A stretch of 37,883 bases of DNA from contig CANQZJ010000017.1 in assembly GCA_947628315.1 (NCBI GenBank), positions 1-37,883 of the forward strand, written 5' to 3'. Positions 5,793 to 29,849 of this stretch are shown piece after piece (the first letter of the stretch is position 1; every line of letters begins with the position of its first letter). A program made the translations under genes and the position numbers. Below the pieces are notes generated by a model. It had not been told where the DNA came from and did not search any database. It saw only the letters and a list, made by a program, of their open reading frames with translations. Source of the stretch: an uncultured Oscillospiraceae bacterium. Its GTDB lineage: Bacteria; Bacillota; Clostridia; Oscillospirales; Oscillospiraceae.

Positions 5793-6917
5793 ATGAACGA
5801 TGCCAGTGTGAACCGACAATCGAAAGGCGCTTTTGCCGGATGGGTGGGAGTGGCGGTCAACCTGTCCCTATTCGCCGTCAAGCTGATCGCCGGGTTCCTC
5901 ACCGGGGCGGTGTCCGTCACCGCCGACGCCTTCAACAACCTGTCCGACGCCGTCGGCTCCCTGGTGACGCTGGCCGGCTTCCGGCTGTCCGCCCAGCGGG
6001 CGGACGAGGAACACCCCTTCGGCCATGGGCGCATCGAGTACCTGGCGGGGCTGGCGGTGTCCCTGCTGATCCTGCTGGTGGGGATCGAGCTGGGACGGGA
6101 CGCCATTTGGCAGATCCTCCACCCGGAGGAGACCGTCCTCACCGTGCCCGCCGTCGTCATCCTGGTGATCGCCATCCTGGCGAAGATCGGCCTGAACCGG
6201 TTCGACAGGTACTGGGCGAAGAAGATCGACTCCCCCGCCCTGAACGCCGCAGCAGCGGACGCCCTGGGCGACGTGCTGGCCACCGGCGCCGTGCTGGCCG
6301 GGCTGGCGCTGACCCCGGTGCTGGGCTCCTGGGTGGACGGCGCGCTGGGCCTGGTGGTGGCCGCGCTGATCCTCCGCTCCGGCTGGGCGGCGGCCAGAGC
6401 CACCGTCAACCCCCTGTTGGGCGAGCCGCCCGACCCCGCCACGGTGAAGGAGATCGAGGGGCTGATCCTCTCCCACGGGGAAATCTTGGGCATCCATGAC
6501 CTGATCATCCACGACTACGGCCCCGGCCGGCGGATGATGTCCGTCCATGTAGAGGTGCCGGAGGACTCCTCCCTGGTGGCCATCCACGCCGTGGTCGACC
6601 ACATCGAGCGGGAGCTGAAGGAGCGGTTCGGCCTGGAGGCGGTCATCCATATGGATCCGGTCGGCGCGGACGATCCCCGGCTCCGCCGCCTGAAGGAGCT
6701 GGTGGAGGCCGCCGCCAAAGAGCTCCATCCCGGCGCCACTGTCCACGACCTCCGTACCGGGGGGGACGACCGCATGGATCTGCGGTTCGACGTGGTGATC
6801 CCCTATGAGGCGGAGCTCACCGACGAGGAGATCCGCACGTCCCTCACCGCCAAATTGAAAGAGAAGGAGCCCTGCTGCCGCCCGGACATCGGGGTGGATC
6901 GCTCCAGCGTGCTGTGA
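5793..6917 (+). CDS. Cation diffusion facilitator (probable Mn/Fe-type efflux transporter)
   Basis: This 374-residue CDF protein has an N-terminal six-helix membrane domain and a C-terminal cytoplasmic domain with an extended tail. CDF proteins export divalent metals by proton exchange. The family motif HPFGHGRIEY follows TM2. The transport-site residues, by alignment with YiiP, are N48-x3-D52 in TM2 (NNLSD) and D156-x3-D160 in TM5 (DALGD). Zn exporters normally have D/H-x3-D in these places, while an Asn plus DxxxD set is typical of Mn exporters such as MntE, so Mn is the best guess. The ATG at 5793 is preferred over one at 5757 because GGAGAG lies 7 bases upstream. It is monocistronic, with no metal-responsive element recognised. 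Confidence 0.9.
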   Translation: MNDASVNRQSKGAFAGWVGVAVNLSLFAVKLIAGFLTGAVSVTADAFNNLSDAVGSLVTLAGFRLSAQRADEEHPFGHGRIEYLAGLAVSLLILLVGIELGRDAIWQILHPEETVLTVPAVVILVIAILAKIGLNRFDRYWAKKIDSPALNAAAADALGDVLATGAVLAGLALTPVLGSWVDGALGLVVAALILRSGWAAARATVNPLLGEPPDPATVKEIEGLILSHGEILGIHDLIIHDYGPGRRMMSVHVEVPEDSSLVAIHAVVDHIERELKERFGLEAVIHMDPVGADDPRLRRLKELVEAAAKELHPGATVHDLRTGGDDRMDLRFDVVIPYEAELTDEEIRTSLTAKLKEKEPCCRPDIGVDRSSVL

Positions 6918-27164: not shown

Positions 27165-27177
27165 TTACAGCACAGCA

Positions 27178-27210
27178 AGAGGCCCCGGAGCCTGGCTCCG
27201 GGGCCTCTTT
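27178..27210. terminator. Terminator after eno
   Basis: AGAGGCCCCGGAG (27178-27190), loop CCTGG, and CTCCGGGGCCTCT (27196-27208) followed by TT. It also stands downstream of the convergent GGGtGRT gene. Confidence 0.9.
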
Positions 27211-27241: not shown

Positions 27242-28252
27242 TTAGAAGCGGCCGGCCTTGGCGGCCTCTTCCACGGCCACGGCCACGGAAACGGTCATAC
27301 CGACCATGGGGTTGTTGCCCGCGCCGATCAGGCCCATCATCTCCACATGGGCGGGGACGGAGGAGGAGCCGGCGAACTGGGCGTCGGAGTGCATACGGCC
27401 CATGGTGTCGGTCATGCCATAGGAGGCGGGGCCGGCGGCCATGTTGTCCGGGTGCAGGGTGCGGCCCGTGCCGCCGCCGGAGGCCACGGAGAAGTACTTC
27501 TTGCCCTTCTCGTTGCACTCCTTCTTATAGGTGCCGGCCACGGGGTGCTGGAACCGGGTGGGGTTGGTGGAGTTTCCGGTGATGGACACGTCCACGTTCT
27601 CCTTCCACATGATGGCGACGCCCTCGGTGACGTCGTTGGCGCCGTAGCAGTTGACTTTGGCGCGGGGGCCGTTGGAGTAGGCCTTGCGGAAGACCTCCTT
27701 CACCTGGCCGGTGTAGTAGTCCATCTCGGTCTCCACATAAGTAAAGCCGTTGACGCGGGCGATGATCTGGGCGGCGTCCTTGCCCAGGCCGTTCAGGATG
27801 ACGCGCAGGGGCTTCTGACGGACGCGGTTGGCCTTCTCGGCGATGCCGATGGCGCCCTCGGCGGCGGCGAAGGACTCATGGCCGGCCAGGAAGCAGAAGC
27901 AGTCGGTCTCCTCCTCCAGCAGCATCTTGCCCAGGTTGCCGTGGCCCAGGCCCACCTTGCGCTGGTCGGCCACAGAGCCGGGGATGCAGAAGGACTGCAG
28001 GCCCTCGCCGATGGCGGCGGCGGCCTCAGAGGCCTTGCGGGCGCCCTTCTTGATGGCGATGGCCGCGCCCACGGTGTAGGCCCACTTGGCGTTCTCGAAG
28101 CAGATGGGCTGGATGCTCTCCACCAGGTGGTAGACGTCGAGGCCGGCGTCCTTGGTGATCTTCTCGGCTTCCTCGATGGAAGCGATGCCGTAGCTGTTCA
28201 GGACAGCATTGATCTGGTCAATGCGTCTCTCATAGGATTCAAACAATGCCAT
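27242..28252 (-). CDS. GGGtGRT family protein (function unknown)
   Basis: This 336-residue protein begins MALFESYERRIDQINAVLNS and contains the family-defining motif GGGTGRT at residues 259-265. Other strikingly conserved-looking blocks are SIQPICFENAKWAYTVGAA, CFCFLAGHESF and the nearby AEGAIGIA. No signal peptide or membrane helix is visible, so it is cytoplasmic. The family is known only by its motif; I know no assigned reaction. A Gly-rich loop plus conserved Cys and His residues would suit a nucleotide- or cofactor-binding enzyme, but that is inference. GGAGGG lies 8 bases before the start, 14 bases after the IscU-like gene, so both are one operon. Confidence 0.9.
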   Translation of the reverse strand: MALFESYERRIDQINAVLNSYGIASIEEAEKITKDAGLDVYHLVESIQPICFENAKWAYTVGAAIAIKKGARKASEAAAAIGEGLQSFCIPGSVADQRKVGLGHGNLGKMLLEEETDCFCFLAGHESFAAAEGAIGIAEKANRVRQKPLRVILNGLGKDAAQIIARVNGFTYVETEMDYYTGQVKEVFRKAYSNGPRAKVNCYGANDVTEGVAIMWKENVDVSITGNSTNPTRFQHPVAGTYKKECNEKGKKYFSVASGGGTGRTLHPDNMAAGPASYGMTDTMGRMHSDAQFAGSSSVPAHVEMMGLIGAGNNPMVGMTVSVAVAVEEAAKAGRF

Positions 28253-28266
28253 TTGTCAGCCCTCCT

Positions 28267-28959
28267 TTATTCCTTTCTGGGGTCGATGATCTTCACCGCG
28301 TCGGCAACACGGCCATACTGGCCGCTGGCCTTCTCGTAAGCGGTGGCGGCGTCGTCGCCCTTCTTCATGAAGTCGGTCATCTTGCCGAAGTTTACGTACT
28401 TGTAGCCGATGATCTGGCCCTCCTCGTCCAGCGCGATGCCGGTGACGTAGCCCTCGGCCATCTCCAGATAGCGGGGGCCCTTGGCCAGAGTGCCGTACAT
28501 GGTGCCCACCTGGCTGCGGAGGCCCTTGCCCAGATCCTCCAGGCCGGCGCCGATGGCCAGGCCCTCCTCAGAGAAAGCGGACTGGGAGCGGCCATAGACG
28601 ATCTGCAGGAACAGCTCACGCATGGCGGTGTTGATGGCGTCGCACACCAGGTCGGTGTTCAGAGCCTCCAGAATGGTGCGGCCGGGGAGGATCTCGGCGG
28701 CCATGGCGGCGGAGTGGGTCATGCCGGAGCAGCCGATGGTCTCCACCAGCGCCTCCTGGATCACGCCCTCCTTCACGTTCAGGGTCAGCTTGCAGGCGCC
28801 CTGCTGGGGGGCGCACCAGCCCACACCGTGGGTCAGGCCGGAGATGTCCTTGACCTCTTTCGCCTTGACCCACTTGGCCTCCTCCGGGATGGGGGCGGCG
28901 CCGTGGTTCACGCCCTGGGCGACTTTACACATCTCCTCAACTTCGCGCGAATAAATCAT
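28267..28959 (-). CDS. IscU/NifU-like iron-sulfur scaffold protein
   Basis: This 230-residue protein has an IscU/NifU N-terminal-like core. Key cysteines are C49 and C56 (GWCAPQQGACKLTL, standing where IscU has its first cluster ligand), C77 in ETIGCSGMTHSA (equivalent to the IscU fGCxxxxAS block) and C106 (LVCDAINTAM). The C-terminal 110 residues are unlike IscU. It may assemble or hold an Fe-S cluster for its partner, the GGGtGRT protein. It is not next to iscS or sufBC genes, so it need not be a general scaffold. The start at 28959 has AAAGGAGT 8 bases upstream, and a promoter lies about 80 bases further up. Confidence 0.85.
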   Translation of the reverse strand: MIYSREVEEMCKVAQGVNHGAAPIPEEAKWVKAKEVKDISGLTHGVGWCAPQQGACKLTLNVKEGVIQEALVETIGCSGMTHSAAMAAEILPGRTILEALNTDLVCDAINTAMRELFLQIVYGRSQSAFSEEGLAIGAGLEDLGKGLRSQVGTMYGTLAKGPRYLEMAEGYVTGIALDEEGQIIGYKYVNFGKMTDFMKKGDDAATAYEKASGQYGRVADAVKIIDPRKE

Positions 28960-29036
28960 GTGAAAACTCCTTTCTGTGTATCGTACTGGATGGCAGGTCT
29001 CCATACAGAACAGACTTAATGAGCAGACCTAGGAAT

Positions 29037-29064
29037 ATTATACATGATTTTTCAGATTGTTCAA
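29037..29064 (-). promoter_or_regulatory. Promoter of the IscU-like/GGGtGRT operon
   Basis: On the minus strand, TTGAAC (29064-29059), a 16-base spacer and a perfect TATAAT (29042-29037) lie about 80 bases before the first start codon. Confidence 0.75.
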
Positions 29065-29130: not shown

Positions 29131-29487
29131 TTATTTGCGGAACAGCTCCCTTGTGCCGATGACGAGCAGGAACACGCCGAAGCATTTGCGGAGCAGCTCC
29201 ACGTCCAGCGACGTGGCCAGCCACGCCGCCAGAGCGGTGCCGATAAGCCCCGCCAGGATGGCGGGAAAGAGCGCTTTTTTCTCGATATAGCCGTTTTTCA
29301 CGTGGGCGGGCAGGGCGGTGGCGGCGGTGGGCAGGAAGTACAGCAGATTGACCCCCTGGGCCAGGTTTTGGGGGACAGACACGAAGCCGGTCATATAGAT
29401 CAGCAGCAGGGAGCCGCCGCCGATGCCGAAGCCGGACAGCACCCCGGTGGCCGCCCCGGCCAGCAGGGGGATGAGCCAGTCCGTCAC
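29131..29487 (-). CDS. Half-size TSUP (TauE/SafE) permease protein, C-half type
   Basis: This 118-residue protein has about four membrane helices. It begins VTDWLIPLLAGAATGVLSGFGIGGGSLLL, where the Gly-rich motif matches the start of each TSUP half. It ends in LLRKCFGVFLLVIGTRELFRK, like the end of many full-length TauE/SafE proteins. Full transporters are about 250 residues with two such halves; they export or import sulfur-containing anions such as sulfite or sulfoacetate. The GTG start overlaps the stop of the upstream half by four bases (GTGA). With its neighbour it presumably forms one transporter. Substrate unknown. Confidence 0.85.
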   Translation of the reverse strand: MTDWLIPLLAGAATGVLSGFGIGGGSLLLIYMTGFVSVPQNLAQGVNLLYFLPTAATALPAHVKNGYIEKKALFPAILAGLIGTALAAWLATSLDVELLRKCFGVFLLVIGTRELFRK

Positions 29488-29849
29488 AGCAGCGCCCTCA
29501 CCCCGCCGTAGAGGATCAGCAGGGCGAAGACCCGGCGGAGCAGCGCCATGGACATCTGCCGGTAGACCTTCCCGCCGATGAGTCCGCCGATCAGCCCTCC
29601 CGCCAGGTAGGGCAGCGCCAGCCCGATATCCATGCTGCCCCGGTACCAGTAGATGCCGGCGGACAGGGCGCACAGCGGCGCGATGACGGCCACCGATGTG
29701 GCGAAGGCCTTCCGCTGATCCAGGCCACACTTGCCCGCCAGCATGGGCACCAGCGCCATGCCGCCGCCCCCGCCGAAAAAGCCGTTCACCAGACCGGCGG
29801 CGCCCCCCGCCGCGGCATACCACAGCTGTTTTTTCGTCTCCGTGTTCAA
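29484..29849 (-). CDS. Half-size TSUP (TauE/SafE) permease protein, N-half type
   Basis: This 121-residue protein has about four membrane helices and the Gly-rich motif GLVNGFFGGGGGMALVPML near its start, the TSUP signature. It is translated from a TTG (29849) with a moderately placed GGAAGG; no better start exists, so the start is less sure than the family. It is the first gene of a two-gene unit whose second gene encodes the other half. The two proteins are distinct, not copies, so they may act as a heterodimer. Confidence 0.82.
   Translation of the reverse strand: MNTETKKQLWYAAAGGAAGLVNGFFGGGGGMALVPMLAGKCGLDQRKAFATSVAVIAPLCALSAGIYWYRGSMDIGLALPYLAGGLIGGLIGGKVYRQMSMALLRRVFALLILYGGVRALL

Follow-up and report, generated by a model that had tools for sequence, protein, structure and literature searches.

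Genes and sequence features of the locus

The 37,883-nucleotide contig CANQZJ010000017.1 of an uncultured Oscillospiraceae bacterium (assembly GCA_947628315.1), here called the window over its whole length, encodes on its minus strand two adjacent genes whose distribution and possible joint function are considered here: one for a protein resembling the N-terminal domain of the iron-sulfur scaffolds IscU and NifU, and one for a protein of the GGGtGRT family (PF14057). The IscU-like gene (28267..28959) comes first and encodes 230 residues from an ATG at 28959; 14 bases separate its stop codon from the start of the GGGtGRT gene (27242..28252; 336 residues; E 6.1e-191 to PF14057). This layout agrees with the initial annotation of the sequence, as do the GGGTGRT motif at residues 259-265 (27458..27478, minus strand, in a low-confidence part of the structure model) and the string CFCFLAGHESF at residues 118-128 of the same protein. 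Probable ribosome-binding sites are AAAGGAG (28967..28973) for the IscU-like gene and, within the 14-base gap, AGGAGG (28261..28266) for the GGGtGRT gene, both on the minus strand.

The single consensus promoter that had been proposed for the two genes was recovered by a motif scan as a sigma-70-like site, TTGAAC-16-TATAAT, with 10 of 12 consensus positions (29037..29064, minus strand); the region contains two sites of such quality, compared with a mean of 0.3 after shuffling. The proposed shared terminator region stands in part: a 15-bp hairpin situated where the GGGtGRT gene and the enolase gene converge (about 27177..27209) is strong (folded region -46.6 kcal/mol, z -7.2) and is a possible shared terminator, but it is not among the results of the terminator scan, it has no T-run after it on the minus strand, and the enolase gene could just as well be the one it serves. 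An Rfam scan of the window found two transfer RNAs only. In DNA upstream of the pair, A+T-rich 8-mers of the TGAGAAAA/TGCGAAAA type are found in as many as 23 of 92 regions, where shuffled sequence gave no more than 12, a comparison in which single letters were shuffled and many of the loci are related; no regulator site was identified in these 92 regions.

Pairing of the two genes across genomes

Within a phylum sample of 299 genomes (drawn evenly, completeness at least 90, plus the window's own genome, which is 77% complete), 19 genomes contain 20 GGGtGRT genes, all 20 of which have the IscU-like gene directly upstream, and neither full-length gene occurs alone. A profile of the IscU-like protein matches 76 of the 299 genomes, with only 20 full-length matches (E 4.5e-125 or better); after a gap, partial matches begin at E 3.8e-8 and were taken as ordinary scaffolds. 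A scan of named genomes found at least 586 stretches encoding relatives, and among the best 80, nearly all from Lachnospiraceae and their relatives, the partner lies approximately 4 to 263 bases upstream at 79 loci, some partners being cut by the contig end; at the 80th (L061) the contig begins 46 bases ahead of the GGGtGRT gene. In the window's own family, GGGtGRT was found in 9 of 41 genomes with the partner at all eight loci besides that of the window, and at a ninth place (L235, genome G303) all that is present of the GGGtGRT gene is an end of 28 residues. A small sample from outside the phylum consisted of eight of ten matching plasmid-collection records and one phage-labelled record (H12, locus L163); the partner is present in all nine, which are five Bacteroidota, one Collinsella (Actinomycetota), one Vibrio, one Subdoligranulum (Bacillota) and one unassigned fecal record. 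Across the aligned rows, identity to the window is at least 62% for the IscU-like protein and at least 64% for the GGGtGRT protein.

The two genes are an obligate pair in everything sampled. Because the pair is found together in four phyla, its members very likely work as one unit; the adjacency extends well past the window's lineage, and the Bacteroidota, Actinomycetota and Vibrio records contradict the restriction to anaerobic Firmicutes that was initially suggested. The description of the system as undescribed was also too strong: PF14057 exists, the pairing is already visible in existing annotation, and both families are adjacent by annotation, with no function given, in the Bacteroides iron study discussed below.

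Individual loci vary in their details. One genome (G190) holds two pairs (L016, L020), the second of which is strongly diverged (62-64% identity to the window) and is possibly a functional offshoot. In Parabacteroides (L156) the two genes are separated by an open reading frame (ORF) for a hypothetical protein of 63 residues (5800-5991) that looks membrane-like on visual inspection, and a nitroreductase family gene follows the pair. In Collinsella (L158) the genes sufB, sufD, sufS and sufU are located about 2 kilobases (kb) upstream of the pair, and a transposase separates them from it.

The IscU-like protein

The structure model of the IscU-like protein comprises an N-terminal IscU-fold domain (residues about 40-124), an extra beta-rich C-terminal domain (about 150-216) and a low-confidence stretch (124-163); the fold comparison with NifU_N recovered the IscU fold for residues 40-124. 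The protein has cysteines at positions 11, 49, 56, 77 and 106. An alignment of 110 rows from genome and plasmid loci (at least 200 residues aligned, shorter sequences dropped) has Cys49 (codon 28813..28815), Cys77 (28729..28731) and Cys106 (28642..28644), all on the minus strand, invariant in every row, along with His44, Glu73, Glu89, Glu98, Asp103 and Asp107. The initial annotation had listed a set of four cysteines, but Cys56 is alanine in two of the 110 rows (Vibrio L159, Persicobacter L161), which reduces the set to three. Within the modelled IscU-fold domain, Cys49 comes after the first strand, Cys77 ahead of the first long helix and Cys106 immediately ahead of the final helix, places that are presumably those of Cys37, Cys63 and Cys106 of IscU. 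Profile alignment bears this out for Cys77 alone, which it pairs with the Gly-Cys of ISCU; the equivalence of Cys49 and Cys106 is suggested by the secondary structure of the model.

The key features of Escherichia coli IscU are Cys37, Asp39, Cys63, Cys106 and the LPPVK motif (PMC7585200). With the IscU/NifU N-terminal domain (PF01592) the IscU-like protein shares the fold of residues 40-124, a profile match and a cysteine triad at comparable places in the fold, but it differs from IscU in having neither the CxD aspartate nor LPPVK, in having an extra C-terminal domain and an obligate partner gene, and in the spacing of the second and third cysteines, which is 29 residues here and 43 in E. coli IscU. 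No acidic residue, such as would correspond to Asp39, occurs from Cys49 to Cys56 in 19 aligned rows, a C-x-D string is present at any position in 4 of the 110 rows, and the exact LPPVK string of the chaperone-binding loop is present in none of the 110. The Pfam model NifU_N gives the window protein 20.2 bits, below its cut-off of 22; it matches all 19 members of the IscU-like alignment at E values up to 10 (best 7.2e-6), and six copies in other genomes are narrowly above the cut-off. The NCBIfam equivalogs are missed with 19.9 of 192.4 bits for IscU, 23.4 of 187.9 for clostridial NifU and 18.2 of 92.5 for SufU, and a PHROGs search gave a weak NifU-like match only. Since the features that define a scaffold are partly absent, the protein is not classed as an IscU/NifU scaffold, although it may still work like one.

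The initial annotation had proposed a dedicated scaffold that loads its neighbour. A dedicated iron-sulfur scaffold or carrier, giving its cluster to one client that is either the GGGtGRT protein or an enzyme depending on it, would explain the IscU fold, the cysteine triad, the strict pairing and the proximity of the Collinsella pair to the suf genes, but it accords poorly with the absence of the CxD aspartate and LPPVK and with scores far below the equivalog cut-offs, and is considered a serious but rather unlikely explanation. It is distinctly unlikely that the IscU-like protein is a zinc protein that, like SufU, carries persulfide sulfur, for use by the GGGtGRT protein: SufU structures of the same fold family are among the fold matches and the cysteine triad is in place, but there is no CxD-type aspartate, the SufU model score is about a fifth of its cut-off, and no third constant gene accompanies the pair in the 80 named loci, where desulfurase genes were not sought by name.

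Most genomes that carry the pair have other machinery for iron-sulfur cluster assembly. Eighteen of the 19 carriers, including the window's own genome (C163, E 3.7e-49), encode a further protein with a strong NifU_N match (E 6.8e-17 or better; IscU, NifU and SufU pooled), and so the pair most likely supplements the housekeeping system and does not replace it. The only carrier with no separate NifU_N protein (G247) has a SufBD match; SufBD was found in 13 of 19 carriers and was not found in the window's incomplete genome. [FeFe]-hydrogenase is present in all 19 carriers, but also in 239 of the 299 phylum genomes, so its co-occurrence with the pair says little.

The GGGtGRT protein

The match of the window protein to PF14057 is full-length (633.9 bits, profile positions 1-327 of 327, curated cut-off 27 bits). 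An alignment of 115 GGGtGRT proteins (at least 300 residues aligned) contains no invariant cysteine, so the protein is no obvious iron-sulfur client, a further point against a scaffold dedicated to it. His104, His125, Glu126, Glu132, Asp159, Glu210, Glu218, His236, Asp269, Asp282, Asp290 and His302 are invariant in all 115. Foldseek matched the model weakly to the prismane/CODH family (hybrid cluster protein) and to phosphofructokinase, and hhalign comparison with these two families gave probabilities of 0.25% and 0.35%, using small profiles of 17 and 12 sequences. The structure search of BFVD for this protein gave nothing at E 0.001 or better, and the only PDB sequence match, soluble guanylyl cyclase (E 0.39 with the profile, 0.0076 with the single sequence), was taken as chance. 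The open-licence PubMed Central papers searched give no function for the family; to PF14057 as known, the present analysis adds an obligate partner, a set of invariant residues and a link to iron.

Iron response and expression

Published data connect the pair with iron. In Bacteroides thetaiotaomicron, BT0173 to BT0174, a GGGtGRT protein and NifU, are entered at -2.7 in the iron-dependent stimulon table of one study, the text of which describes BT0174 as downregulated (PMC10434189); by annotation these are the same two families side by side, and the table row states no function. In Clostridium pasteurianum iron went with a higher level of the GGGtGRT protein, 7.1-fold in the early phase and 2.2-fold in the late phase, as the columns of a flattened table can be read, and the IscU-like partner is not mentioned with it (PMC5395762). 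By these two papers, GGGtGRT expression is higher with iron in two phyla.

Other reports indicate that both proteins are detected together: the GGGtGRT protein DFSSTS7063_01431 and the NifU N-terminal protein DFSSTS7063_01432, which have adjacent tags, are both down in one data set (PMC12014591), and one GGGtGRT protein and one NifU-type protein are listed as lowered in another (PMC13041051). High in vivo expression of GGGtGRT has been reported for gut anaerobes of several phyla, namely Bacteroides, Megamonas, Megasphaera, Succinatimonas and Blautia (PMC11204068). Another study counts a "nitrogen-fixing protein NifU", with an abundance of 0.28 to 1.72%, among the top 25 rumen protein families (PMC6043501); this is likely the present IscU-like family, going by the annotation in Parabacteroides. 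The GGGtGRT protein has also been reported in rumen and human gut proteomes. A screen for virulence factors of C. innocuum includes GGGtGRt among its matches, with no mechanism given, and was accorded no weight (PMC9942572).

Expression on this scale in gut anaerobes would exceed the need of a single client, which again argues against a dedicated scaffold. The higher expression with iron in two phyla and the high expression in gut anaerobes could instead point to a store or buffer that anaerobes fill with iron-sulfur or iron when iron is plentiful, a role like that of IssA; the likeness to the IssA thioferrate store (PMC5524996) lies in the idea of iron-sulfur storage alone, and the many invariant polar residues of the GGGtGRT protein seem more enzyme-like. 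Such a store is unlikely.

Origin of the window's copy and integration at the 3' end of GGGtGRT genes

Quick trees of 50 rows for both genes place the window's IscU-like and GGGtGRT proteins with Lachnospiraceae-type copies (18-row set, Shimodaira-Hasegawa-like approximate likelihood ratio test support 99), apart from the eight copies of its own family; a topology constrained to unite those copies with the window was rejected by the approximately unbiased test (p 9.4e-8 for GGGtGRT and 7.3e-4 for the partner). These phylogenies suggest that the window's pair most likely arrived jointly by horizontal transfer. The enolase of the window is 86% identical to that of a genome of the same genus (G065), one contig of which matches the enolase region at 84% and the region 30.2-35.0 kb at 74%; G065 has no GGGtGRT gene, and different ORFs follow its enolase. 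It is unlikely that a foreign contig underlies the odd phylogeny, because the flanks of the pair match this same-genus contig, itself without the pair; a chimeric assembly of the window contig retains a residual probability as the source. The next gene upstream of the pair (29131-29823), presumably TauE-like, has only a 39% match in this same-genus genome (region about 29131-29849).

The apparent joint movement into the window's genome would also be expected if adjacency reflected only shared descent or a mobile cassette whose proteins do not cooperate. This is very improbable, as the pair persists across records from four phyla while its other neighbours vary, and the two proteins show similar conservation (mean column identity 74 and 77%).

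In several IMG/VR contigs, all that is present of a GGGtGRT gene is approximately its last 40 to 70 codons. A repeat of the gene's 3' end was seen in Phocaeicola (L160, 196 bases, 96% identity) and in the contig of L026 and L035 (233 bases, 98% identity). Ten candidate integrases beside full or partial GGGtGRT copies are all PF00589 tyrosine recombinases by Pfam, with differing further domains. Taken together, loci L021-L039, L076, L160 (6820-6993 and 9125-9318) and L235 make this gene end a probable integration hotspot, used in Bacillota and Bacteroidota by elements with tyrosine recombinases of several kinds; the open-licence PubMed Central literature contains no paper joining GGGtGRT with "attachment site" and "integrative element".

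Proposed function of the pair

The best reading of the pair, at a probability of roughly 40%, is a dedicated iron-sulfur unit in the form of a stable complex that uses its metal centre itself. The two genes would specify one functional unit, most likely a stable complex, in which the IscU-fold subunit would hold a metal or iron-sulfur centre by means of Cys49, Cys77 and Cys106, and the extra C-terminal domain would anchor this subunit to the GGGtGRT protein. The alpha/beta part of the GGGtGRT protein may bind a small ligand, perhaps a phosphorylated one, close to the GGGtGRT loop, which is rich in glycine and invariant; the centre would be used within the complex and not passed to a general client pool, and more of the complex would be made under plentiful iron.

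Several observations weigh against this proposal. The pairing and the iron response fit a scaffold and its client equally well. The surroundings of the 80 named loci, up to 8 kb, contain no constant gene apart from the pair (the commonest neighbour clusters after it occur at 25 and 22 of the 80 loci), so no pathway is indicated. The GGGtGRT loop falls within a low-confidence stretch of the model (residues 259-288), the fold matches of that model, among the families compared, are middling and scattered, and the model of the IscU-like protein is weak (mean predicted local distance difference test score 62.6, predicted template modelling score 0.43).

A more specific version, in which the pair is a two-subunit iron-sulfur enzyme or sensor abundant in gut anaerobes, the scaffold having turned from a cluster courier into a permanent cofactor subunit and GGGtGRT founding a new catalytic or ligand-binding family, is doubtful. 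With an obligate, altered IscU-like partner, an invariant cysteine triad and iron-linked expression, the GGGtGRT family becomes a testable biochemical system, and if the IscU fold does serve in it as a fixed cofactor subunit, this would be a new use of the scaffold fold.
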